Of a stretch of DNA of 64,000 nt, positions 49,526 through 64,000 are shown piece by piece; the first letter of the stretch is position 1; the number at the start of each line of letters is the position of its first letter. The DNA comes from Flavobacteriales bacterium (GTDB lineage Bacteria > Bacteroidota > Bacteroidia > Flavobacteriales_C > GCA-002722245), in NCBI GenBank assembly GCA_002717515.1, contig PBEC01000018.1, positions 364,563 through 428,562 on the forward strand, given 5' to 3'. A model generated the notes under the pieces. That model was given only the letters and a program-made list of their open reading frames with translations. It did not search any database and had not been told where the DNA came from. Made by a program: the position numbers and the translations under genes.

Positions 49526-50176
49526 ATGTCACAAATAAGCGTATTGCATGCTGAAAACTATTCATTGGCAGCAGAGGGATTAAAAAGAATCTTATCAGAA
49601 CATAATATTTCTGGAAGTTTTTTTTGTGTAAAAAAAAGTGAAGAGTTAGAATCAGGAATACTTGCTTATGAACCTGATTTACTTATCATAAATTATGCTT
49701 CAAAAGGGTACTTTTCAATTGAGGATTTAGAGTTTATTTCAGCCAGCTATCCTAATTTGAATATTCTTGTAATTGCAAATGATTCTTCAACAGTACGAAT
49801 CAGAAAAGTTCTTGAAATCGGCGTAAAAGGTTATTTAACGAATAATAGTGACAAAGATGAAATTGTATTAGCAATTCGTAAAATTCTCTCAGGAGAGAAA
49901 TATTTTTCCTCTGAAATAGTAGATATTATTTTAAATAAAAAAGAACCTTATCCAGTTTTTTCTAAAAAGAATCAGATTCTTACTCATAGAGAGCAGCAAA
50001 TCGTTAAAAACATTGCTCTTGGAAAGTCAAACAAACAAATTGCTGACCTGCTTGGCATAAGTCATCATACAGTGCATACCCATAGGAAAAATGCAATGAA
50101 AAAGCTTTCCATAAAAACATCAACGGAATTGACGCTTTACGCAGTTGATTATGGCTTAATAGAGTTAGCTTATTAA
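49526..50176 (+). CDS. LuxR-type regulator with degenerate receiver domain
   Basis: 216 residues. C-terminal LuxR/FixJ HTH is intact (L-T-H-R-E-Q-Q-I-V-K-N-I-A-L-G-K-S-N-K-Q-I at about 150-170, then H-H-T-V-H-T-H-R-K-N). The N-terminal receiver fold keeps its hydrophobic strands but loses the phosphorylation site: the acidic pair is E10-N11, the phosphoacceptor position is N56 (L-L-I-I-N-Y), the Thr/Ser position is A84 and the conserved Lys is N106 (G-Y-L-T-N). It is therefore probably phosphorylation-independent. It opens the heme locus, 99 bases before the HmuY-like gene, with no kinase nearby; control of that locus is an inference. Confidence 0.8.
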   Translation: MSQISVLHAENYSLAAEGLKRILSEHNISGSFFCVKKSEELESGILAYEPDLLIINYASKGYFSIEDLEFISASYPNLNILVIANDSSTVRIRKVLEIGVKGYLTNNSDKDEIVLAIRKILSGEKYFSSEIVDIILNKKEPYPVFSKKNQILTHREQQIVKNIALGKSNKQIADLLGISHHTVHTHRKNAMKKLSIKTSTELTLYAVDYGLIELAY

Positions 50177-50212
50177 GGGTATTCAAATTAATCATTTGAC
50201 CATTTCTAGTTA

Positions 50213-50243
50213 TTGCATAAGCCTAGTTTGCTTGAGATTTTTG
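50213..50243 (+). promoter_or_regulatory. Promoter of the secreted HmuY-like gene
   Basis: TTG at 50213-50215, 20-base spacer, GATTTTTG at 50236-50243 (one mismatch to TAnnTTTG). The leader would be about 25 bases. Confidence 0.55.
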
Positions 50244-50275
50244 CAAAATAAATTAAAACTAAATTTCTAACGCTT

Positions 50276-51508
50276 ATGAAAAAAATTACTCTAATTTTTG
50301 CTGGAATATTTTCAGTATTAGGTTTAAATGCACAAACAACAGATACAGTATCTACAGGTGCAGGATACGCAAACAGTGTATATTACAATCTTGATAATAA
50401 TGAAGTTCACTCCGCTGAGGCTGGGAATTGGGATATAGCATTTACTGTGAGTGGTATGGGCTCAACAATTCGAACAAATGGAGGCTTTGGAGTTGAACTC
50501 TATAACTACCCCAATGGTGATACCTCACATTGGTCCTCAATAGATACTTCAGGTATTTCAAGTTGGAAAAAGTATTATAATTCAGATTCTTTATGGTCAA
50601 AGGGTGCTTTTAGCCAAACTGCAGATGGAATGGACATGGGATGGGGTAATTACAGTATGATTACTCATTACGTTACAGCAGATTCCTTGTTCGTAATTAA
50701 GTTACCCGATGGAGAATATAAAAAGTTTTGGATTGATCGACTTGCAAGCGGAGTATATTATTTTAAGTACGCTGATTTAGATGGTACAAACGAAGTTTTG
50801 GATACTGTTGCGAAAGCCGATTATGTAAATAAAAGTTTTGGTTATTACTCAATTCAAAATGGTACAGAAGTTGACAGAGAACCGGATAAAGACAGCTGGG
50901 ATATGGTGTTTACAAAATATGGTCAATCGATTACTCCTAGTTATTATATGGGTGTGTCAGGTGTTCTAACAAATGAGGGAGTATCTGTAAATAAAGTTGA
51001 GGGTGTTCATAGTTTGGACGCTGACACGTTGACTACTCCTTTTTCAAGCAGTATGACTTCAATTGGATACGATTGGAAAAAGTTAGACTATTCAACCTAT
51101 CAGTATAGTGCAGTCGATAGTTTGACTTATTTTGTAAAATCAAAAGTTGGAGATCTATGGAAAGTAGTTTTTACCGGATTTGGAGGAAGTTCGAGTGGGA
51201 ATTACATTTTCACTAAAGAAAAAATCTTTAGTGTTGACGTAAATGAAAACAATGAGGATTTAAAAGTTGCTACATATCCTAATCCGACAAGTGACTTTTT
51301 AAATATAGTTCTTCATCAAAACAGCACTGAAAATTTAGAAGTCACGGTCTTAAATTTATCCGGAGCAATCGTTTATTCAAAAAACTTCACTGGTTTTTCA
51401 GGGGTTAATAATATTCAGCTCAATGTAAGTGAATTTTCACAGGGGCTTTATATAATTAATGTTAAAAATCAAGGAGTATCGGTGCAAAGAAAATTTGTAG
51501 TGAAATAA
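50276..51508 (+). CDS. HmuY-like heme-binding protein with T9SS sorting domain
   Basis: HmuY proteins are hemophores that take heme from host or environmental proteins and deliver it to a TonB receptor. This 410-residue protein has a signal peptide (ending L-N-A-Q-T), a HmuY-like beta fold (about 25-320; N-W-D-I-A-F-T, D-S-W-D-M-V-F-T-K-Y, S-I-G-Y-D-W-K-K) and a T9SS type A domain (Y-P-N-P-T-S-D-F-L-N-I-V, then S-Q-G-L-Y-I-I-N-V). It shares the same blocks in the same order with the lipoprotein two genes downstream, so the two are paralogues. Free secretion or surface attachment through T9SS distinguishes it. Followed by a strong hairpin. Confidence 0.8.
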   Translation: MKKITLIFAGIFSVLGLNAQTTDTVSTGAGYANSVYYNLDNNEVHSAEAGNWDIAFTVSGMGSTIRTNGGFGVELYNYPNGDTSHWSSIDTSGISSWKKYYNSDSLWSKGAFSQTADGMDMGWGNYSMITHYVTADSLFVIKLPDGEYKKFWIDRLASGVYYFKYADLDGTNEVLDTVAKADYVNKSFGYYSIQNGTEVDREPDKDSWDMVFTKYGQSITPSYYMGVSGVLTNEGVSVNKVEGVHSLDADTLTTPFSSSMTSIGYDWKKLDYSTYQYSAVDSLTYFVKSKVGDLWKVVFTGFGGSSSGNYIFTKEKIFSVDVNENNEDLKVATYPNPTSDFLNIVLHQNSTENLEVTVLNLSGAIVYSKNFTGFSGVNNIQLNVSEFSQGLYIINVKNQGVSVQRKFVVK

Positions 51509-51534
51509 TTAATAGAATATTAATAAAATTTATT

Positions 51535-51566
51535 CCAGAGGAGAAAATTTTCTCCTCTGGTTTTTT
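51535..51566 (+). terminator. Perfect hairpin between the HmuY-like and receptor genes
   Basis: A 13-bp perfect inverted repeat, CCAGAGGAGAAAA with TTTTCTCCTCTGG, with no spacer, then six T. The receptor start is only 15 bases further on, so readthrough would give lower receptor than hemophore levels, or a separate promoter is needed. Confidence 0.85.
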
Positions 51567-51581
51567 AGCACTAAAATAATC

Positions 51582-53858
51582 GTGAGGTTTAGCCTGTTGA
51601 TATCACTTTTTTTTTGTTTTTTCTCATTGACTTATGCACAGGATACTGTATTTGTCAAGGTTATGGATTCATCCAATAATCCTATATCAGGAGCTCATGT
51701 CCAGTTTAAATGTATAAATTGCGTTACGCTTAAAGTCAAATTATTAATCACAGGGGTAGATGGCAAAGTTAGTAACCCTTTTAACGGAAATACAGAGATT
51801 TATATATCTTGTTTAGGATACAAATCCGTGTTCGACACATTATTTGCCAATCGATCTAAAAACATAGTTTTACAACACGATGCTGTCGATATTAATGAAG
51901 TAGTTGTAACAGCTCAATATGCAGAAAACAGCTCAGAAAAAGCAGTGCATAAAATCAAAGTAATTGATCAAAAAAAAATAGAATCTCTGGGTGCGGTAAA
52001 TCTTAGAGATATTCTCACCAATGAAACTAATGTCAGGATTACACAGGATAATGTTTTAGGAAGTAGTACAAGTGTTCAAGGTTTGAGTGGGCAAAACGTG
52101 AAAATATTAATTGATGGTGTTCCCATAATTGGACGTGTAGGCGGAAATATCGATTTAAGTCAAATTAATTTAAATGATATTGAGCGTATTGAAATTATTG
52201 AAGGACCTTTATCCGTTGAATATGGGACAAATGCCTTAGCAGGTACTATAAACTTAATTACAAAAAAGTCCTCCAGAAAAAAATATAACTTAAATCTCAA
52301 TACTTATTATGAAACGGTTGGTCAATATAACCTTGATGGCAGTTTAAAATTTAATCGAAAAGGATATCAATATTCCATAAATGGAGGAAGGAATTTTTTT
52401 GATGGTTGGAATGTTTCTGACCCCTTTTTTGATATAAATAGGATTAAAATCGCTGACTCTACTCGATTTAATTCATGGAAACCCAAAGAGCAAAATTTTT
52501 TAAAAGTACTTCACTCTGGTAAATTCTTAAAATTAAATTATCGATTTTCTTCCGATTATTTTAAAGAAAAAATCATCAACAAAGGCTATCCAAGAGCCCC
52601 CTATAATGAAACAGCATTTGATGATTTTTATCATACAAATCGATGGAGTAACAATTTAAATATCAGACGAAAGTTTAGCAAAAGAGCACGACTAAACATG
52701 ATTTTCGCCTACAATTATTTTCGAAGACAAAAAAACACATTTTATACTGATTTAACTACTCTACAAAGTAATTTGTCAGAAAATGTCTCAGATCAGGACA
52801 CAACGTTGTTCGACTTATTTATGGCCAGAGGGACTTACTCAACCTTAAATGATTCTGCAAAATTTAATTATGCCTTAGGATATGATTTTAATTTTGAAAC
52901 AGGATACGGAAAGCGAATTAAAGAAAAAACTCAAGCAATAGGAGATTATGCGATTTTTGGGAGTGCAGAATATAAACCTCTAAATAAATTAATCATCCGT
53001 CCCGGATTAAGATACTCCTATAATACATCGTACAAATCTCCATTAATACCCTCTTTAAATTTGAGATATAATATAAGAGATTGGATATTTAGGACTTCAT
53101 ATTCCTCTGGATTTAGGGCGCCATCAATAAAAGACCTGTATTTTAATTTTGTGGACAGTAACCATGATATTCAGGGAAACCCAAATTTGACTGCAGAGAC
53201 TTCACATAATTTTAGTTTTTCAGGAGTAAAAACCATCGTTAAAAAAAATAAAGTATTTAAAATGACAGGTTCAGGTTTTTACAACAACATAAATAATTTA
53301 ATTACACTAGCGATTAGTGAAGGGAACTCATATTCTTATTTTAATCTCGATAAATACAAAACACTTGGTGCATTGGCTCAAATAGAGCTTGTGATTAGTC
53401 ATTTTAAGTGTACATTTTCAGGAACTTATACAGGTAGATACAATTCTCTTTCTGAGGATTTAAGTATAGAACCTTTTAGCTATTCTCCTGAATTAAGAAG
53501 TAATTTTTCATATGATTTACGAAAATATAATTTAAATTTTTCAGGTTTTTATAAGTACTCAGGAGAAATTATTGGATACTACTTTGATGAAGATGATGAA
53601 ATACAACAAAATTTTTTGGGAGATTTTAACACGCTTGATTTAACAGCTACGAAAGGCTTATGGAAAAATAAAATTAAGTGGACCTTGGGTGGTAAGAATT
53701 TATTTAATGTTAAAAATATTGTTTCTAGAGGCGCATCTGGGGTTCATTCTTCCAGTACAGGTTCCGTATCAATGAGTTGGGGGATGTCGGTATTCACTTC
53801 AATTAAAATTGATTTAAACGGAAACCGAATAAAAAAAACTAAAATCAATATAAAGTGA
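51582..53858 (+). CDS. TonB-dependent heme receptor (HmuR-like)
   Basis: A 758-residue outer-membrane receptor starting at GTG 51582 (M-R-F-S-L-L-I-S-L-F-F-C). Signal peptide ending T-Y-A-Q, carboxypeptidase-like domain (about 22-100), plug (about 110-215, V-Q-G-L-S-G-Q-N-V-K-I-L-I-D-G), then barrel. Heme-receptor boxes are present in order: F-R-A-P at 511-514, His528, N-P-N-L at 533-536, as in HemR/HmuR-type receptors where the intervening His is needed for heme use. It lies between two HmuY-like genes; its stop overlaps the next GTG. Confidence 0.85.
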   Translation: MRFSLLISLFFCFFSLTYAQDTVFVKVMDSSNNPISGAHVQFKCINCVTLKVKLLITGVDGKVSNPFNGNTEIYISCLGYKSVFDTLFANRSKNIVLQHDAVDINEVVVTAQYAENSSEKAVHKIKVIDQKKIESLGAVNLRDILTNETNVRITQDNVLGSSTSVQGLSGQNVKILIDGVPIIGRVGGNIDLSQINLNDIERIEIIEGPLSVEYGTNALAGTINLITKKSSRKKYNLNLNTYYETVGQYNLDGSLKFNRKGYQYSINGGRNFFDGWNVSDPFFDINRIKIADSTRFNSWKPKEQNFLKVLHSGKFLKLNYRFSSDYFKEKIINKGYPRAPYNETAFDDFYHTNRWSNNLNIRRKFSKRARLNMIFAYNYFRRQKNTFYTDLTTLQSNLSENVSDQDTTLFDLFMARGTYSTLNDSAKFNYALGYDFNFETGYGKRIKEKTQAIGDYAIFGSAEYKPLNKLIIRPGLRYSYNTSYKSPLIPSLNLRYNIRDWIFRTSYSSGFRAPSIKDLYFNFVDSNHDIQGNPNLTAETSHNFSFSGVKTIVKKNKVFKMTGSGFYNNINNLITLAISEGNSYSYFNLDKYKTLGALAQIELVISHFKCTFSGTYTGRYNSLSEDLSIEPFSYSPELRSNFSYDLRKYNLNFSGFYKYSGEIIGYYFDEDDEIQQNFLGDFNTLDLTATKGLWKNKIKWTLGGKNLFNVKNIVSRGASGVHSSSTGSVSMSWGMSVFTSIKIDLNGNRIKKTKINIK

Positions 53859-54859
53859 AATATATAAAAAGCATTACCTTATTGTTTATTTCTTTTTTCA
53901 TTTTTTCTTGTGAAAAAGAGGAACAGCCCATTGAAAGACAAAAAAAAACAGGAGAACAAATTACAGCATCAGTATTTTTAGATTCGGATTATAAATATCA
54001 AATTTTTTATGATTTGGAGTCCAATAAAGAGGTTGCTAAAAACATAACTACAGAATGGGATATTGGATTTGAATGCGGTGATGAAGGATATCACATTAAA
54101 TTAAATGCAAGTAAAGGAATGCAGGTTTGGTGTTCAGGCGAAACATCATTTTCTGCTGTTGAGTCTTATTCAGGAGCTGAATGGACCTGGGATAACCCAA
54201 ACGGCTCTATTGACTCGACAGCAATTGGTGAATGGGGACAAAAGAATGGAGAAGATATAATTTCAAATAATCAAGTTTTTGTATTGGATATGGGATATAA
54301 TAGTGAAGGATATTCTCAAGGATATAAAAAAATGAAGATATTAGGTTTATCTGATAATCGCTATCAAGTTAAAATTGCTGATTTATCAGGTGAAAATGAA
54401 TTCACAAAATTTATCTCAAAAGATAATGATTACAATTTTGTGTTTTTATCTTTTGAAAATCAGGGTGCTATTGTATCTATAGAACCACCAAAAGATGATT
54501 GGGATTTAGTTTTTACGAAGTATACTCATACTTTTCAGAGTGAAGGAGTTCCTATTCCATATGGAGTAACTGGAATACTGCTTAATCCAAGTAGAATATC
54601 GGTGCATCGAGATACCATCTTTGGTTTTGAAAATATAAACCGTGATGCAGCACAAACTTTAGAATATAGTTTTAATCATAATGTTATTGGATATGATTGG
54701 AAAACCTATGATTACGAATCAGGTTCTTACATCATTCATCCAGAAAAGAATTTTGTCATAAAAGATAAGTCAGGTTTTTATTATAAATTTCATGTAATTG
54801 ATTTTTATAACGATAGTGGTCAAAAAGGGAATATAAAATTTGAATTTATGCTGTTGTAA
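53855..54859 (+). CDS. HmuY-like heme-binding lipoprotein
   Basis: A 334-residue lipoprotein (lipobox F-I-F-S-C) with the HmuY-like fold: E-W-D-I-G-F-E, D-D-W-D-L-V-F-T-K-Y, Y-G-V-T-G-I-L-L-N and V-I-G-Y-D-W-K-T-Y-D-Y. It matches the blocks of the T9SS-exported paralogue upstream but lacks a sorting domain and has a short linker after the lipid anchor. Its GTG start overlaps the receptor's TGA (GTGA), so it is translationally coupled to it. It probably presents heme to the receptor from the outer-membrane surface. It ends 1 base before the convergent hemS stop. Confidence 0.8.
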   Translation: MKYIKSITLLFISFFIFSCEKEEQPIERQKKTGEQITASVFLDSDYKYQIFYDLESNKEVAKNITTEWDIGFECGDEGYHIKLNASKGMQVWCSGETSFSAVESYSGAEWTWDNPNGSIDSTAIGEWGQKNGEDIISNNQVFVLDMGYNSEGYSQGYKKMKILGLSDNRYQVKIADLSGENEFTKFISKDNDYNFVFLSFENQGAIVSIEPPKDDWDLVFTKYTHTFQSEGVPIPYGVTGILLNPSRISVHRDTIFGFENINRDAAQTLEYSFNHNVIGYDWKTYDYESGSYIIHPEKNFVIKDKSGFYYKFHVIDFYNDSGQKGNIKFEFMLL

Positions 54860-54860
54860 T

Positions 54861-55934
54861 TTAGTTTAAATCCATTTCATTAATAATTTCTCTCCAGTTT
54901 GAGTCCTCTGGAATTCCAGGTTTCCTTTTTCCAAAAAAAGTACAAACAAGCTCCTCTTTGAAATTAAATATTTCAATAGAGTTGACATCACCATCAGAGG
55001 TTGGTTTTTTTACCAGCCAACACTCCTTAATACTGTTTGTTTTAATGTGCAAATTAAAATCTGCATCCATTATGTTGTACCATTCTTTCATTTCAAGTAA
55101 TTTTTTTATAGGACCTGTATGAATTTGTAACATCCCCTTGTTTCCAACAAAAACCATGATTGGTGTATTGGTTTCCGCTGCTTTTTTTAAAGATTTTTTA
55201 ATCACATCGTTAGAAACCTTTTTAGCATATTTAATACCGTCTTTATTGGGTGCTAATTCCAGAGATTGTAGGCGAGTAACACCATGTTTTTTCATTAATG
55301 GAAAAAAGGCATGTGTATCTTTTAAATTCAACCAATCTTGCTGAAATTTTTCTTTATTGGGATTTTCATTTCTTTTTACAGGATCAATCTTTTTAGAACT
55401 AATTTCGTTTTCATCAATGCCTTGAATATGATGTTTATAGGATTTTTTAATTTTTAGAAATGCCTCAGCATTACTTTCTTTAATTAAATAAATTTTATGA
55501 ATAGCACTTCCGTCTTTGCTGAAAAATTGAATACTGAAACGTTCACTACCTCTGGCAAATTCAGAAACAGCAAAAGTGAATTCCCAATGGTTCAAGAAAA
55601 CTCTCAAGTCAATATCTTCTCCAACAAATAATCCCACGTGAGCATTTTTACCAAAACTGGGGTTAAGATACTCTCCATTTCTTTCGTGCACTACCTCATC
55701 ATTGCGTGTCAGCGCTTTAACCTTTCCAAGTTTGGGTATTTCATTCGTAAGAAAATCACTGAAGTTGACATCAAGTCTAGTTACAGTATCATTACAACCT
55801 GTAGCTAATAATTCCGCTTCAGAAGTATTTAATATTTCGGCAGCATCTCGTATTCTTACTTTAGGGTTTTCCGCTTTGAATTTAATCCATTGTTTTTTTA
55901 ACGTTGGTTCTTTATTAACTTTTATATCTTTCAT
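54861..55934 (-). CDS. hemS: Hemin-degrading factor, HemS/ChuS family
   Basis: Cytoplasmic heme-handling protein made of two homologous halves; ChuS and HemS bind incoming heme and ChuS can open the porphyrin. 357 residues. N-terminal W-I-K-F-K-A-E-N-P-K-V-R-I-R-D-A-A is the family start; the D-T-H-A-F-F-P-L-M-K-K-H-G-V-T-R-L-Q segment near residue 210 is the matching second-half helix and its His is my candidate axial ligand by analogy to ChuS. Last gene of the leftward hmuTUV operon, 11 bases after hmuV. Whether it degrades or only stores heme is not decided by sequence. Confidence 0.88.
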   Translation of the reverse strand: MKDIKVNKEPTLKKQWIKFKAENPKVRIRDAAEILNTSEAELLATGCNDTVTRLDVNFSDFLTNEIPKLGKVKALTRNDEVVHERNGEYLNPSFGKNAHVGLFVGEDIDLRVFLNHWEFTFAVSEFARGSERFSIQFFSKDGSAIHKIYLIKESNAEAFLKIKKSYKHHIQGIDENEISSKKIDPVKRNENPNKEKFQQDWLNLKDTHAFFPLMKKHGVTRLQSLELAPNKDGIKYAKKVSNDVIKKSLKKAAETNTPIMVFVGNKGMLQIHTGPIKKLLEMKEWYNIMDADFNLHIKTNSIKECWLVKKPTSDGDVNSIEIFNFKEELVCTFFGKRKPGIPEDSNWREIINEMDLN

Positions 55935-55945
55935 TTTAAATAAAT

Positions 55946-56764
55946 TTATCTAATTAATTCATTTTCTAATCGGTTATATTTGACACCAGTTACTATATTG
56001 AAATGGTGGTCGTTTTTTATAATTGATATAGGTACTTTATATACTTCTTCTAATAATTTTTCAGTCAATACTTCTCGAGTTTTTCCTTGAGTAATGACTT
56101 CTCCTTGCCTCATTACTATTGAGTAGTTTGAATACTGAGCTACTAAATTTAAATCATGGAGTACTATAATCACGCATACATTATGATTCTCAGCAAATCT
56201 CTTTGCTAATTCTAATATTGAATGCTGAAATTGAGGGTCTAAATTATTAACGGGCTCATCTAGAATCAATATTTTCCCTTCTTGTTCCTCTTTGGAATTC
56301 GGCCATATTTGGGCCAGAGTCCTGGCAAAGTGAACCCTTTGTAATTCTCCTCCACTAAGGGTATTCGTAATTCTATCTGATAAAGAAGTTATATCGAGTA
56401 ATTTCATTGCTGAGGTAATAATTTCATCATCTATTTTTGATGGATAAACTTTATAATGAGGGAATCTACCCATAGAAACAATTTCCTTAACTGTATATCC
56501 AACAGACAAGTTAAATTGTTGATTCAGATAACTTCTTTTCAGGGCTAAATTTTCTAATCCAATATTTTTAATGTTTTTACCATCTAATTCTATAACTCCC
56601 TTATTTGGCGTTATGGTTCCCGAAATACATTTAACTAATGTTGATTTTCCTGCTCCATTTGGTCCTAAAATTGCAGATACTTTACCATTTTCAAAGGTTG
56701 AATTAACATTTTTCAGGATATTTTTTTTTCCAACAGCAAAAGAAATATTTTTAGTTTTAACCAT
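55946..56764 (-). CDS. hmuV: Heme ABC transporter ATP-binding protein
   Basis: 272-residue ATPase of the heme importer. Walker A G-P-N-G-A-G-K-S-T, signature L-S-G-G-E-L-Q-R-V, Walker B I-L-I-L-D-E-P and the H-D-L-N-L switch His are all present. Its start overlaps the hmuU stop by 8 bases. Motif spacing and length match heme/cobalamin-type FecE ATPases; heme specificity comes from hemS next door and the convergent HmuY/receptor genes. Confidence 0.92.
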   Translation of the reverse strand: MVKTKNISFAVGKKNILKNVNSTFENGKVSAILGPNGAGKSTLVKCISGTITPNKGVIELDGKNIKNIGLENLALKRSYLNQQFNLSVGYTVKEIVSMGRFPHYKVYPSKIDDEIITSAMKLLDITSLSDRITNTLSGGELQRVHFARTLAQIWPNSKEEQEGKILILDEPVNNLDPQFQHSILELAKRFAENHNVCVIIVLHDLNLVAQYSNYSIVMRQGEVITQGKTREVLTEKLLEEVYKVPISIIKNDHHFNIVTGVKYNRLENELIR

Positions 56765-57794
56765 TAATTTTTCTCTTTTGTTGAATTAATAAAGCTAGAA
56801 ATAATGGAGTACCTAAAATTGCAGTTAAAATTCCAATAGGAAGTTCTGCGGGGGCAACAATCAGCCTACATAGTAAATCGGAGATGCTGAGAACCAAAGC
56901 TCCTAAAATTGCAGAAATCCAAATTAAATTTCTGTGTTTTGGCCCAACTAATAATCTTGTAATGTGCGGAATTAGAAGGCCAATGAAGCCGATCATACCA
57001 GCAATAGCAACACAGGCTCCTACGGATATAGTAACCCATACAACCAATCTTCTTTTAAGACTGTTTACATTTACTCCTAAGCATAATGCTTCAGATTCAC
57101 CAAGAGCGTAAACATCAAGTTTTTTCGCCAGTCGGGCAATCATTATAATTGGTAAAATTATAAGTGGGATTAATGCTATAACTTTTTCCCAATCAGCGCC
57201 GCCTAAACTTCCCAAGCTCCAAAACGTAATATCTCTGAGTTGATCATCATCCGATAAATAAATAATAAAACCTGTAACAGCACCTGCCAAAGCATTAATT
57301 GCGATTCCTGCCAATAACATGGTTGCAATGTTGGTTGATTTATTTGACTTTGATAATTTGAATACAATGATTGTTGTTAAAATAGCCCCTAAAAAAGTAG
57401 CGAATGAAATACTGTAATACCCTAAAAATCCACTTGTAAACTGAAGTCCCATTATTATGGCAATGGAGGCTGCGAGCATTGCTCCTGCTGAAATACCAAT
57501 TAGACCAGGATCTGCAAGTGGATTTCTAAACAGTCCCTGTAAACCAGCGCCACTTACTGCCAATGCCGCTCCAATCATCATACTTAAACAAACCCTCGGA
57601 AGCCTTATGTAAAGTAAAACATTATGTTGAGGATTAGTAAAATCGCTGTAATTATCAGCTCCGAATAAATTCAATAAAATATTTGCACATTGTTCAAATT
57701 CAATCTTAAAAGCACCAAATGATGTTCCCGCAATTATACATATTGGTAACAATACGAGAAGAGAAATATAGGTTATTTTTACTCTTTGGGTCAT
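56757..57794 (-). CDS. hmuU: Heme ABC transporter permease (FecCD family)
   Basis: 345-residue inner-membrane permease with about ten helices. Family blocks: R-L-P-R-V, G-A-A-L-A-V-S-G-A-G-L-Q, N-P-L-A-D-P-G-L-I-G-I-S-A-G-A and the C-terminal G-F-I-G-L-L-I-P-H coupling-helix segment. The ATG overlaps the hmuT stop by 4 bases and its end overlaps hmuV, giving a tight hmuT-hmuU-hmuV unit. Confidence 0.93.
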   Translation of the reverse strand: MTQRVKITYISLLVLLPICIIAGTSFGAFKIEFEQCANILLNLFGADNYSDFTNPQHNVLLYIRLPRVCLSMMIGAALAVSGAGLQGLFRNPLADPGLIGISAGAMLAASIAIIMGLQFTSGFLGYYSISFATFLGAILTTIIVFKLSKSNKSTNIATMLLAGIAINALAGAVTGFIIYLSDDDQLRDITFWSLGSLGGADWEKVIALIPLIILPIIMIARLAKKLDVYALGESEALCLGVNVNSLKRRLVVWVTISVGACVAIAGMIGFIGLLIPHITRLLVGPKHRNLIWISAILGALVLSISDLLCRLIVAPAELPIGILTAILGTPLFLALLIQQKRKING

Positions 57795-58657
57795 TTTGTA
57801 AAAATTTCACCCAACTTTTCATTAAGCTCCAATGCTGCTTTACCAACTCGAGGTCCAAATCCTGATAAGTATTGACCGTCCATTGTAATAATTCTTTTGT
57901 TTTTACCGGCATTTGTTTGAAGTATTCCCGGGACATTATCAAATACACCATTTAGACTTTGAGCTCCAGTTGTAAACATTAAAATAACATCAGGGTTAGC
58001 GGTTACAATAGCTTCTGCAGTTAATGGTTTGAATGACTCAAAATTGTCAACTGCGTTTTTTCCCCCGGCAATAGATATCATTTGATCCATTTGAGTGTTT
58101 TTTCCAGCTACTAAAATTGTTCCAGCCCCTCGAGCGTATATAAATAAAACTTTTGGGGACTGCTCAAATGCCTCTAGTTTGTTAATTGATTGATCAATCA
58201 AAATATTTAGTGAATCATTTTCAATATCAAAATTGAGACTGTCTTTAACTCCTTGTATTAATTTTTTAGTTCCTTCAATCGAATGTTCTTGATTGAATAA
58301 AACCACTTTAATTCCACTTGCTTTGATTTGTTTTATGACTTTTGGATTTAATTCTTTTTGAATACCGACTACCACATCCGGATTTTGGGCTAAAATTCCT
58401 TCCGCCTGTATACTTCTGTTATGTCCTACTTTAGGGAGTTTATGAATGCTCTCTGGATAATTACTGGTTACATCTGTTGCTACCAGATTTGATTCATAAC
58501 CAAGTGCGTATATGATTTCACTGAGTGCACCATTTAAGGATACAATTCGTATTGTTTTTTTATTTGAATTTGACTCATTTTTTACTGATTTTTTTTCCTG
58601 GCAACTTACAAAAAGGAGACCGATAAAAACTGATACCGCAAATAGTTTGTATTTCAT
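57791..58657 (-). CDS. hmuT: Heme ABC transporter substrate-binding lipoprotein
   Basis: About 288 residues from ATG 58657 (M-K-Y-K-L-F-A-V-S-V-F), with lipobox F-V-S-C; an earlier start at 58681 is not supported. PF01497-type periplasmic binding fold: R-I-V-S-L-N-G-A-L-S-E-I-I-Y-A-L-G at the N-terminus and V-G-H-N-R-S in the first lobe. First gene of the leftward hmuTUV-hemS operon. It faces fumC across a 246-base region; I see no consensus promoter for it there. Confidence 0.88.
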   Translation of the reverse strand: MKYKLFAVSVFIGLLFVSCQEKKSVKNESNSNKKTIRIVSLNGALSEIIYALGYESNLVATDVTSNYPESIHKLPKVGHNRSIQAEGILAQNPDVVVGIQKELNPKVIKQIKASGIKVVLFNQEHSIEGTKKLIQGVKDSLNFDIENDSLNILIDQSINKLEAFEQSPKVLFIYARGAGTILVAGKNTQMDQMISIAGGKNAVDNFESFKPLTAEAIVTANPDVILMFTTGAQSLNGVFDNVPGILQTNAGKNKRIITMDGQYLSGFGPRVGKAALELNEKLGEIFTK

Positions 58658-58875
58658 TTTTGACGTAATTTTTAAATTCAACGTATATTTCAGATGGGTT
58701 GGTTAAATTAATATCAAATCGTTTAAAAGTTTTAATAATCCATTAATTTACCTTGTTTACGGTATTCTTTGTGATGAGATAAACCAATCGGTCAAGAGCA
58801 GTTTTTGAATAAAATCAAACGTGTTTTATACCCAAAAAAAGGTACTGCATTTGCTGTTAATTTTCTACATCTTTG

Positions 58876-61034: not shown

Positions 61035-61889
61035 ATGCAAAAATTGGTTTTTTTTATTTTCTCTATTGTTCTTGTTTTTTCCTTCAAAAACGATAAACCA
61101 GCCTATATTATTTATAATTCTAAGGGAAAAAAAGTATCGTTTTTCAAGATGAAAAAAGAGCTAAAGAATAAAGAATTAATATTCTTTGGAGAGATTCACA
61201 ATAATCCAATCGCTCATTGGCTTCAGTTGGAATTAACACAGGAGTTAGGAAAATCCAAAGATTTAATTTTGGGAGCAGAAATGTTTGAATCCGATAATCA
61301 AAAGGGTTTAAATTTATACCTCAATGACTCCATAGATTCAAAAGGTCTTGATACAGTTGTTCGTTTATGGAGCAATTACAAAACCGATTACAAGCCTCTT
61401 GTCGATTATGCTAAACGAAACAAATTACCTTTTATAGCGACTAATATTCCAAGAAGGTTTGCGTCAATGGTATACAAAAAGGGTGGATTTGAAGTGCTGG
61501 ATTCGTTATCTGCAGATGAAAAATTATGGGTAGCTCCATTGCCCTTTCCTTTTGATTCAGAAATTCCCGGTTATAAAGCTATGTTAAACATGTTTCCCGG
61601 TCATGGAGGGCCGGAAATTGTAAAGGCTCAAGCTTCGAAAGATGCAACTATGGCTCATTTTATACTTCAAAATATAGAATCTAATCACATTTTTCTTCAT
61701 TACAACGGTTCATACCACAGTAATAATTATGAGGGTATTTTGTGGTATGTAAAACAACAAAATCCGAAAATTAAATGTGGAACAATATCAACAGTTATTC
61801 AGGAAGATGTTGGTAAAATCGATAAAGAGAATATAGGTTTAGCCGATTTTATTATTGTGGTTGATAAGGACATGACAACAACATATTGA
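61035..61889 (+). CDS. ChaN-like heme-binding uptake protein (Tiki superfamily)
   Basis: A 284-residue exported protein with signal peptide (M-Q-K-L-V-F-F-I-F-S-I-V-L-V-F-S) but no lipobox Cys. The ChaN family binds heme at the outer membrane of Campylobacter, and the wider Tiki fold includes metalloproteases. Family blocks: F-F-G-E-I-H-N-N-P near residue 52, G-A-E-M-F-E, N-I-P-R-R-F-A-S and the C-terminal H-Y-N-G-S-Y-H-S. The two G-E-x-H and H-x-x-x-x-x-H segments carry candidate heme or metal ligands. Sits 2.3 kb from hmuT, separated by fumC. Confidence 0.78.
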   Translation: MQKLVFFIFSIVLVFSFKNDKPAYIIYNSKGKKVSFFKMKKELKNKELIFFGEIHNNPIAHWLQLELTQELGKSKDLILGAEMFESDNQKGLNLYLNDSIDSKGLDTVVRLWSNYKTDYKPLVDYAKRNKLPFIATNIPRRFASMVYKKGGFEVLDSLSADEKLWVAPLPFPFDSEIPGYKAMLNMFPGHGGPEIVKAQASKDATMAHFILQNIESNHIFLHYNGSYHSNNYEGILWYVKQQNPKIKCGTISTVIQEDVGKIDKENIGLADFIIVVDKDMTTTY

Positions 61890-61916: not shown

Positions 61917-64000
61917 TTACCTTAAAAGGGTAACGGTTCCTGTTCGCTCTTCGTTCTTTCTTCCTCCATATTGAGTTACGTAATTATAGGATATTCTATA
62001 AACATAAACATCGTTTGTTTGCATTTCATTCTCATAGATTCCGTTCCATCCTTCGTTAATATTATTTGTTGTGAAAACTACACGATTCCAGCGATTATAA
62101 ACTGTAAATTGATATTTTTCAATCGTACCGTGATAAACCGGTTTAAAAACATCATTTAATCCATCATTGTTTGGTGTAAATGAGTTAGGTATATAAAGGT
62201 TACCCGGACAATAATCTTCAACTGTAAAAGAATGTCTCGAACTGCAGCTTTCATTCGATACAGTGACAAAATAAGTTCCAGCTTCAGTTATTTCAACCTT
62301 GTTTGTTTCACCAAAATCGTCCCATTTAATCACCTCATTTTCTTCATCGTTCGTTAAAACATTTAAGTGGGTTGTTTGATATTCAAAACAATAAAAACCG
62401 ACTGAATTTACATCTTTTACTCGTGAGTCTGGAGTATCTATTTTGGTAACAAAAATCTGATGAGTGTCCAGGCAATTATTTCCTTCAATAATTCCTGAAT
62501 AAACACCCGATTCAAAAATGGTATGGTTTTCACTGTATTTGTTTTCCAACCAATACACATTATAATCTTCGAATCCAGGGTCAGGAGCAAGGTCAAGTCC
62601 ATTTCCCTCACAGAATGAGCGTGTTTTTTCTGAAAAGGGATCAGGTAATATTTCCTCAGATACATTTATTTCGTCCTTACCTAAGCAGCCTAAATCGTCA
62701 AAAACCTTAATTCTATAAAGGCCGGCTGAATTAATGGTAATATTATTTTCAGTTGAAGTTGTACTCCACACGATATCATATCCTTCTCCATAATTAGAGT
62801 ATAAAGTCAAATTCTCATTCTCGCAAATCAAAGTATCGTTACCCAAATCAACAACGGGCAATTCTCTGACATAAACTTCAATCGTATCATGATCTTTACA
62901 GCCAACTTCATCACTTACTTCAACACTATAAACTCCTGCATCATAAACTTTGATTTTGTGAAAGTTTTCTCCAGAATTCCATGTATAAATGTAGCCGGAA
63001 CTATTTGTGTTGAGAACAAGTTCAGCCCCTCTGCATATTGTCGTGTCGTTTCCTAAATCGATTTGTGGAATTTCATTAACGCTTAAATATAATGAATCAG
63101 AATTTACACAACCCAATCGACTTCGAACCGTAACACTGTAAATACCCTCTTGGGAGGTAACTATATTTTTTGTGCTGTCGCCGGTATTCCAAAAATATTG
63201 CAATGCCGAAGATTCCGCAATTATTGCGATAGTATCACCTTCACATATTGTTGTATCCTTATTGATATCCAAAGTTGGAATTTCATTAATTTTAAGATAT
63301 ACGGAATCACTGTTGCTGCAGCCATTTTCATCGACAACATCAACACTATATAAGTCCTCGTGTGAGACATTAATACTGGAAGCAGTTTCTCCTGTATTCC
63401 AAACAAAATCGTATTCAATATTATCAACCTTTAATACGATTGACTCTCCTTCACAAACAGCTGTATCGTTTCCAATATTTAAAGAAGGCAAATTGTGGAA
63501 AATGACATTTATCGTGTCGTTTTTTGAACAGCCAAAATCATCAGTGACAGAAACACTATAAGTTCCACTCGATGAGATTACCAAAGCATCTGTGGTTTCC
63601 AATGTGTTCCACAAGTGATTAAGTTCAAAATTTCCAGCACTTAAATTCAGGATTTCTCCATTACATAGAGAAGTGTCGTTTCCAAGATTCACGTACGGTA
63701 AGTTAATTAATGTAAGCTCTACCGAATCTGTCGAATAACAACCAAAATCATCAATGACCTTGACGCTGTATATACCGTTATCTGATGTTTTAATTTGACT
63801 TGTGGAGTCTCCGTTGTTCCATTCATGGATAAGTTCACCTAGTTGGGTATCGAATACTACTTCTTCACCGTCGCAAATTGAGGTATCCTCACCCAAATTT
63901 AAGTTGGGAAGTTCCTGTATGGTTAACTCCATGGAATCTCTACCTAAACACCCCTTTGAACTTTCAATTTCCAGGTGATAAATACCAGGATTTTTCACCT
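61917..64000 (-). CDS. T9SS type B (CHU_C) protein with tandem 70-residue repeats (5' partial)
   Basis: Reading frame open to the end of the window; 693 residues are visible and the N-terminus is missing. Six tandem repeats are followed by a degenerate seventh and a gliding-motility-associated C-terminal (CHU_C) domain of about 90 residues (Y-I-P-N-S-F-T-P-N-N-D-G-L-N-D-V-F, then Y-N-R-W-N-R-V-V-F). This domain is the type B T9SS export signal, found on very large adhesins. Each repeat has two Cys (positions 14 and 59), suggesting one disulfide per repeat. Confidence 0.85.
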   Translation of the reverse strand, partial: VKNPGIYHLEIESSKGCLGRDSMELTIQELPNLNLGEDTSICDGEEVVFDTQLGELIHEWNNGDSTSQIKTSDNGIYSVKVIDDFGCYSTDSVELTLINLPYVNLGNDTSLCNGEILNLSAGNFELNHLWNTLETTDALVISSSGTYSVSVTDDFGCSKNDTINVIFHNLPSLNIGNDTAVCEGESIVLKVDNIEYDFVWNTGETASSINVSHEDLYSVDVVDENGCSNSDSVYLKINEIPTLDINKDTTICEGDTIAIIAESSALQYFWNTGDSTKNIVTSQEGIYSVTVRSRLGCVNSDSLYLSVNEIPQIDLGNDTTICRGAELVLNTNSSGYIYTWNSGENFHKIKVYDAGVYSVEVSDEVGCKDHDTIEVYVRELPVVDLGNDTLICENENLTLYSNYGEGYDIVWSTTSTENNITINSAGLYRIKVFDDLGCLGKDEINVSEEILPDPFSEKTRSFCEGNGLDLAPDPGFEDYNVYWLENKYSENHTIFESGVYSGIIEGNNCLDTHQIFVTKIDTPDSRVKDVNSVGFYCFEYQTTHLNVLTNDEENEVIKWDDFGETNKVEITEAGTYFVTVSNESCSSRHSFTVEDYCPGNLYIPNSFTPNNDGLNDVFKPVYHGTIEKYQFTVYNRWNRVVFTTNNINEGWNGIYENEMQTNDVYVYRISYNYVTQYGGRKNEERTGTVTLLR
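62655..63914 (-). repeat. Six tandem 210-bp coding repeats
   Basis: Each repeat encodes exactly 70 residues with the frame x-L-P-x-x-x-L-G-N-D-T-x-x-C, then W-N-T-G-E, then G-x-Y-S-V-x-V-x-D-x-x-G-C. Protein identity between copies is moderate and the DNA has diverged, so they are old duplications rather than recently expanded copies. An incomplete copy lies upstream, at the window edge. Confidence 0.85.

Follow-up and report, generated by a model that had tools for sequence, protein, structure and literature searches.

A haem-acquisition locus of Bacteroidia in which two differently exported, tandem-domain HmuY-family proteins flank one TonB receptor

Results

Organization of the locus

The haem-acquisition locus described here lies in a 64,000-nucleotide stretch of contig PBEC01000018.1 (positions 364,563 to 428,562) of a Flavobacteriales bacterium, which we call the window and in which all coordinates are given unless stated otherwise. 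Its plus strand encodes in order a LuxR/NarL-type regulator, a HmuY-family protein with the tail of the type IX secretion system (T9SS; protein Y1), a TonB receptor (R), and a HmuY-family lipoprotein (Y2), and these genes meet a convergent hemS-hmuV-U-T run on the minus strand. A preliminary description of the window, made from the letters alone, had proposed haem acquisition with two HmuY-like proteins, one exported by the T9SS and one lipid-anchored, and our analysis supports this reading, with the correction that position 49526, given there as the start of the locus, belongs to the LuxR-type regulator while Y1 begins at 50276. The host genome is a member of the Bacteroidia with 2.64 Mb in 26 contigs, and its only matches to the HmuY family (PF14064) are Y1 and Y2. 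The central features are as follows:

50276..51508, plus strand: Y1, signal peptide, two tandem HmuY domains and type A sorting domain, 410 amino acids (profile matches; AF2 pLDDT 91.8)
50336..50809, plus strand: Y1 HmuY domain 1, residues 21-178 (PF14064, 29.8 bits, cut-off 27)
50810..51250, plus strand: Y1 HmuY domain 2, residues 179-325 (PF14064, 23.4 bits, E=7.1e-5, below the cut-off)
51275..51505, plus strand: Y1 T9SS type A C-terminal sorting domain, PF18962 residues 334-409 (PF18962; structure match to 8glj and 8glk)
51535..51560, plus strand: terminator-like hairpin of 11 pairs followed by TTTTTT, between Y1 and R (z = -3.3)
51582..53858, plus strand: R, TonB-dependent receptor with an N-terminal CarboxypepD-like extension, FRAP at 511, His528 and NPNL at 533 (plug 6.6e-21, barrel 1.7e-29)
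53855..54859, plus strand: Y2, lipoprotein (Cys19) with two tandem HmuY domains (PF14064, E=5.2e-20, 72.6 bits; AF2 pLDDT 92.2)
53957..54397, plus strand: Y2 HmuY domain 1, residues 35-181 (PF14064, 43.8 bits)
54398..54856, plus strand: Y2 HmuY domain 2, residues 182-334 (PF14064, 40.6 bits)

Y1 and Y2 share a tandem of HmuY domains

The sorting domain of Y1 is clear from two independent models (PF18962, E=3.6e-16; TIGR04183, 46.7 bits), and the host genome encodes SprA (above the cut-off in a profile search), making a T9SS likely; we infer that Y1 is exported by this route and then either released or displayed on the cell surface. Its HmuY-family membership is less conspicuous, with 29.6 bits for PF14064 over the whole frame and no match in a whole-protein scan at E<=0.1. 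In a fold search with the Y1 model, matches to the sorting domain and to unspecific beta proteins prevail, and the HmuY-family structure 8b6a appears at E=6.6e-3. For Y2, the lipid anchor is reflected in a Cys19 that is invariant among the 54 aligned relatives (54/54), and all 10 matches of its model to the PDB with E<=0.001 are HmuY-family structures at probability 1.00. The target-normalised TM-scores of these matches are low (0.36-0.50) and their root-mean-square deviations large, probably because each single-domain structure is aligned across both domains of Y2, so that the modelled fold would support membership of the HmuY family more than a precise fold match.

All four halves of Y1 and Y2 match PF14064, three of them above the curated cut-off of 27 bits, and when the two halves of one protein are compared by profile, E is 2.4e-9 in Y1 and 1.2e-6 in Y2, with the repeated strand order visible in the Y2 model. 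Between the proteins, first halves pair with first halves (3.7e-23) and second with second (2.9e-37), indicating that the tandem is older than the split of Y1 from Y2. Y1 and Y2 align as homologues in the same order across 271 columns (hhalign, E=2.9e-52), and the sequence blocks whose shared order had been pointed out before are indeed common to the two; they turn out to be parts of tandem HmuY repeats that had been overlooked.

The pair recurs around a receptor throughout the Bacteroidia

We searched a sample of 395 genomes from the class Bacteroidia, representing 78 families, with separate Y1 and Y2 profiles; all genome, family and pair counts that follow from this search are among the matches listed, and genomes with weak matches only may be missing. 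Y1 was found as 143 full-length genes in 136 of the 395 genomes and Y2 equally as 143 in 136; both occur together in 129 genomes, one alone in 7 and 7, and neither in 252 (Fisher p about 2e-85, with shared descent ignored). In 125 of the 395 genomes the two genes are no more than 15 kb apart, so that the combination of a T9SS-tailed and a lipoprotein HmuY around a receptor recurs far above chance, and in 90 of the 128 linked pairs Y1 precedes Y2 on the same strand at a distance that would fit a receptor gene. Carriers span roughly 30 of the 78 sampled families (family labels read by eye) and include, among named genomes, Salibacter, Acidiluteibacter, Vicingus, and Crocinitomicaceae. This recurrence rules out that the pair is a peculiarity of the host genome.

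At the 127 linked loci that we examined, R is always present (127/127), mostly in the order Y1-R-Y2, and both HmuY-family proteins invariably keep two domains (127/127). Their sorting signals are equally constant, with a T9SS tail on Y1 at 126 of these loci and on Y2 at none (0/127), and a simple lipobox pattern matches 100 of the 127 Y2 proteins. Lewinella has Y1 together with T-U-V-S-R and no recognised Y2. At another locus (L251, 5030-8528), a single run of genes contains two TonB receptors in alternation with two HmuY-family genes of the single-domain type, which shows that several HmuY genes around receptors occur in simple form too.

In phylogenetic trees, Y1 and Y2 fall into distinct clades at a support of 100, whether the tail is kept or removed; recent local duplication as the source of the pair is thereby ruled out, and judging from the trees the split is old. 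Path distances of the Y1, R, and Y2 trees correlate with r=0.74-0.79.

The receptor is coupled to Y2 and only loosely attached to Y1

R has the plug, the barrel, and the motif boxes for which it had been called HmuR-like, and its relatives share a FRAP-like motif at 116 of the 127 loci and FRAP...NxxL at 82. It stays below the curated haem-receptor cut-off (TIGR01785, 111 bits vs 316.85), and B12-receptor and haem-receptor models score about equally without either cut-off being passed.

The genes of R and Y2 overlap by 4 bases in the window (53855/53858) and the same -4 bp spacing is found at most linked loci, a gene arrangement by which the two are predicted to be translationally coupled almost everywhere. 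The distance between Y1 and R, by comparison, varies between -8 bases and several thousand, and other genes can stand between the two. Of the single operon assumed earlier for all three genes, the R-Y2 part is thus upheld by the overlap, whereas a hairpin with a T run separates Y1 from R. Counts of hairpins followed by T runs are not above chance in this region, and the one between Y1 and R is the strongest by far; at the same position, similar hairpins occur in loci L036/L057 and L038/L058 and none in L037/L056. Such a hairpin suggests that Y1 is probably produced either at higher levels than R-Y2 or independently of them. In P. gingivalis, mRNA secondary structures between hmuY and hmuR have likewise been reported (cited in PMC12106395).

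A 6.9 kb block of the window (51870-58765; R body, Y2, and hemS-V-U-T) is 98.9% identical to the congeneric species G002 (PBLA01000025.1, locus L056), while its flanks, including Y1, share 66-75% identity with that genome. The block has sharp edges, one within R immediately ahead of the plug and the other upstream of hmuT, and it reflects either a recent exchange between species or a chimera in the assembly of a metagenome-assembled genome.

Haem import genes and other neighbours

The remaining genes of the locus are these:

49526..50176, plus strand: LuxR/NarL-type response-regulator-like gene 5' of Y1 (GerE 2.5e-17; Response_reg below cut-off)
54861..55934, minus strand: HemS/ChuX-type cytoplasmic haem protein (PF05171, 7.2e-64)
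55946..56764, minus strand: HmuV haem ABC transporter ATPase (NF010068, an NCBIfam equivalog, 268.5 bits, cut-off 261)
56757..57794, minus strand: HmuU FecCD-type permease (PF01032, 1.2e-91)
57791..58681, minus strand: HmuT substrate-binding lipoprotein, likely ATG start at 58657 (PF01497, 5.1e-29)

The convergent hmuT-U-V-hemS run (58681-54861 on the minus strand) that had been described before is confirmed by these matches. A relative of the regulator also stands 5' of Y1-R-Y2 at some other loci, and the complete seven-gene order Y1-T-U-V-S-R-Y2 exists in other genomes, including those of the isolates Salibacter halophilus and Acidiluteibacter ferrifornacis. Across the 127 linked loci, hemS is found at 13 and T, U, and V together at 12, spread over the class, and at 82 none of the searched haem genes is near the trio.

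At 13 of the 127 loci there is a gene for a predicted lipoprotein of the CbiX-type chelatase family, mostly between Y1 and R (e.g., L061 10249-11190, L064 1743-2651, L065, L079, L080, L081, and L099) and often accompanied by a membrane protein of PepSY-like or FMN/ferredoxin type; the chelatase might possibly remove iron from haem outside the cytoplasm. No locus has both hemS and this chelatase (0/127), which hints at alternative routes for freeing iron from imported haem. Beside double- and single-domain HmuY-receptor loci, DUF6607 recurs (L118 10316-11260, L256, L258, L260, L262, and L263) and is a candidate for a new haem-uptake accessory.

Further along the window, 2.4 kb beyond hmuT and past a fumarase-like gene, a ChaN/Tiki-type haem-binding uptake protein (61035-61889; PF04187, 1.5e-55) is possibly linked to the same haem function. 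It is followed by a long repetitive open reading frame (61917-63998) in which "LGNDT.IC.G" repeats abound and the C-terminus is gliding/T9SS-like; this frame probably runs on past the window edge and looks like a surface protein.

Discussion

A division of labour between two HmuY-family proteins

Co-occurrence, linkage, and separate old clades are what would be expected if Y1 and Y2 do different jobs for one receptor, and on these sequence grounds a conserved division of labour between them is well supported. As to what these jobs are, we favour a mechanism, to which we give an even chance, in which a single TonB receptor works with two specialised tandem-domain HmuY-family proteins, Y1 capturing haem and lipid-anchored Y2 handing it to R. 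Y1 would leave the cell through the T9SS and bind haem either free or on the cell surface, Y2 would be made from the same message as R, sit at or over the receptor by its lipid anchor and pass haem on, and R, HmuTUV, and HemS would complete import and use. Haem as the ligand of both proteins, their surface topology, and the order Y1 to Y2 to R would all have to hold for this, and the direction from far to near is one that we read from predicted locations only. In its boldest form, the Y1-R-Y2 arrangement would be a true extracellular relay that moves haem in two stages, with four HmuY domains per receptor, in which Y1 captures haem away from the cell and passes it to Y2 capping the receptor, and it would rank among the main ways of taking up haem in roughly thirty families of Bacteroidia; this we put forward tentatively and doubt somewhat more than we believe it.

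Several observations weigh against the favoured mechanism. Known members of the HmuY family use His/His, Met/Met, or His/Met as axial haem ligands, and neither Y1 nor Y2 shows clear conserved His or Met equivalents of His134/His166 in P. gingivalis HmuY, though the profile alignments are weak and worst for the N-terminal halves; the only near-invariant histidine is His131 of Y1 (70/75). HmuY-Bf-3 of Bacteroides fragilis binds neither haem nor protoporphyrin IX (PMC12106395), and deletion of hmuY in Flavobacterium columnare left growth normal and had no effect on virulence (PMC9618737). The correlation of the Y1, R, and Y2 trees is expected from shared descent alone, and HemS/TUV are near only 13 of the 127 trios, so that the case for haem as cargo is strongest in the window and in a minority of relatives. 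It is nevertheless very unlikely in our view that the cargo is generally another tetrapyrrole or metal complex and that the haem genes of the window are incidental. The undecided scores of R between B12 and haem models, the 82 loci without searched haem genes, and the 13 with a CbiX-type chelatase would fit such a cargo, but the FRAP-His528-NPNL boxes of R, membership of the HmuY family, and HemS/TUV adjacent to the trio or within the same gene run at 13 loci spread over the class all speak for haem. The ferrochelatase encoded in the host genome makes haem more likely an iron source than a vitamin.

A close rival, though on balance we consider it unlikely, is parallel delivery without a relay, in which Y1 and Y2 are hemophores that each supply R directly and are tuned to different haem sources (free or proteolysed haem vs haemoproteins) or redox states. 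Among known HmuY homologues, the main differences lie in how haem is ligated and which redox state is preferred (PMC11208336), two or three HmuYs are present in several species (PMC12106395), and genomes with a Y2-type protein and R without Y1, like Lewinella with the converse, suggest that either protein can serve a receptor alone. Against this, 129 genomes have both proteins compared with 7 and 7 that have a single one, and each protein constantly carries its own type of sorting signal; both observations point to complementary jobs. A further rival is that just one of the two binds haem while the other is structural, with Y2 as a lid on R resembling BtuG or XusB or Y1 as a protein to which haemoproteins dock. 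BtuB-BtuG and XusA-XusB are precedents for a TonB receptor with a lipoprotein lid (PMC13142918), the coupling of R with Y2 is near universal, and both the behaviour of HmuY-Bf-3 and the lack of a canonical ligand pair in these weak alignments would agree with a protein that does not bind haem; the retention of tandem HmuY domains in both partners at all 127 loci argues the other way, and we regard this explanation as improbable.

Comparison with known systems

Work on HmuY has dealt almost wholly with single-domain proteins from anaerobes of the mouth and gut, while about a third of the sampled Bacteroidia genomes encode a double-domain HmuY in an exported and anchored pair, the named ones belonging largely to free-living environmental lineages. 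Why two hemophores should serve one receptor thereby becomes directly testable in cultured non-pathogens. We found no account of a tandem-domain HmuY or of such a pair round one receptor in the openly readable literature, although an earlier mention is possible and the 2024 HmuY review (PMC10966948) was outside its scope; the pair is thus a standard arrangement in genomes and not one that we found described. The assumption that HmuY is usually a single lipoprotein simplifies the published picture, given the species with two or three HmuYs and the T9SS-secreted HmuY of F. columnare. What is new here is apparently the tandem domains, the commonness of the pair, and the R-Y2 coupling with a loosely attached Y1, whereas T9SS-secreted HmuY and multiple HmuYs have already been published.

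As in the Hmu system of P. gingivalis (HmuY-HmuR-STUV), a HmuY-family gene adjoins a TonB haem receptor, and HmuY is a lipoprotein there too. That system, however, has one single-domain HmuY and no T9SS-tailed HmuY partner, and it employs a CobN-like HmuS and an ExbB-like HmuU (PMC13227078) where the present locus has a FecCD-type ABC importer and HemS. Solved members of the family are single domains of about 180-200 residues, from which Y1 and Y2 differ by having two domains each; the single-domain state is a trait of the studied members and not part of the Pfam definition. The HmuY of F. columnare (C6N29_01035) resembles Y1 in combining a HmuY domain with a Por_Secre_tail and being secreted by the T9SS, but it is the sole heme-uptake entry in the gene table of that study and no lipoprotein partner is described (PMC9618737). 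HfpY of F. psychrophilum is likewise a HmuY-like haem binder (1:1 with haemin), co-transcribed with its TonB receptor HfpR and induced by low iron (PMC9331221), yet just one HmuY-like protein is reported there and a DoxX-family gene lies between HfpY and the receptor.

T9SS cargo near hmuY has precedents in the hmu operon of P. endodontalis, which encodes the type A cargo POREN0001_0445 (PMC11208336), and at the HmuY locus of P. intermedia, where a T9SS type A protein is co-induced with HmuY by low iron (PMC10434189). This cargo is described as an unknown beta-barrel-like protein and not as a HmuY, and gene order and partners differ. BtuB-BtuG and XusA-XusB combine a surface lipoprotein with a TonB receptor and are a plausible model for R-Y2, which here is known from gene coupling, although their lipoproteins come from other families, their cargo is different and they have no second exported paralogue. 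Should our favoured mechanism hold, the pair of Y1 and Y2 would be a T9SS-based counterpart to the hemophore relays known elsewhere.

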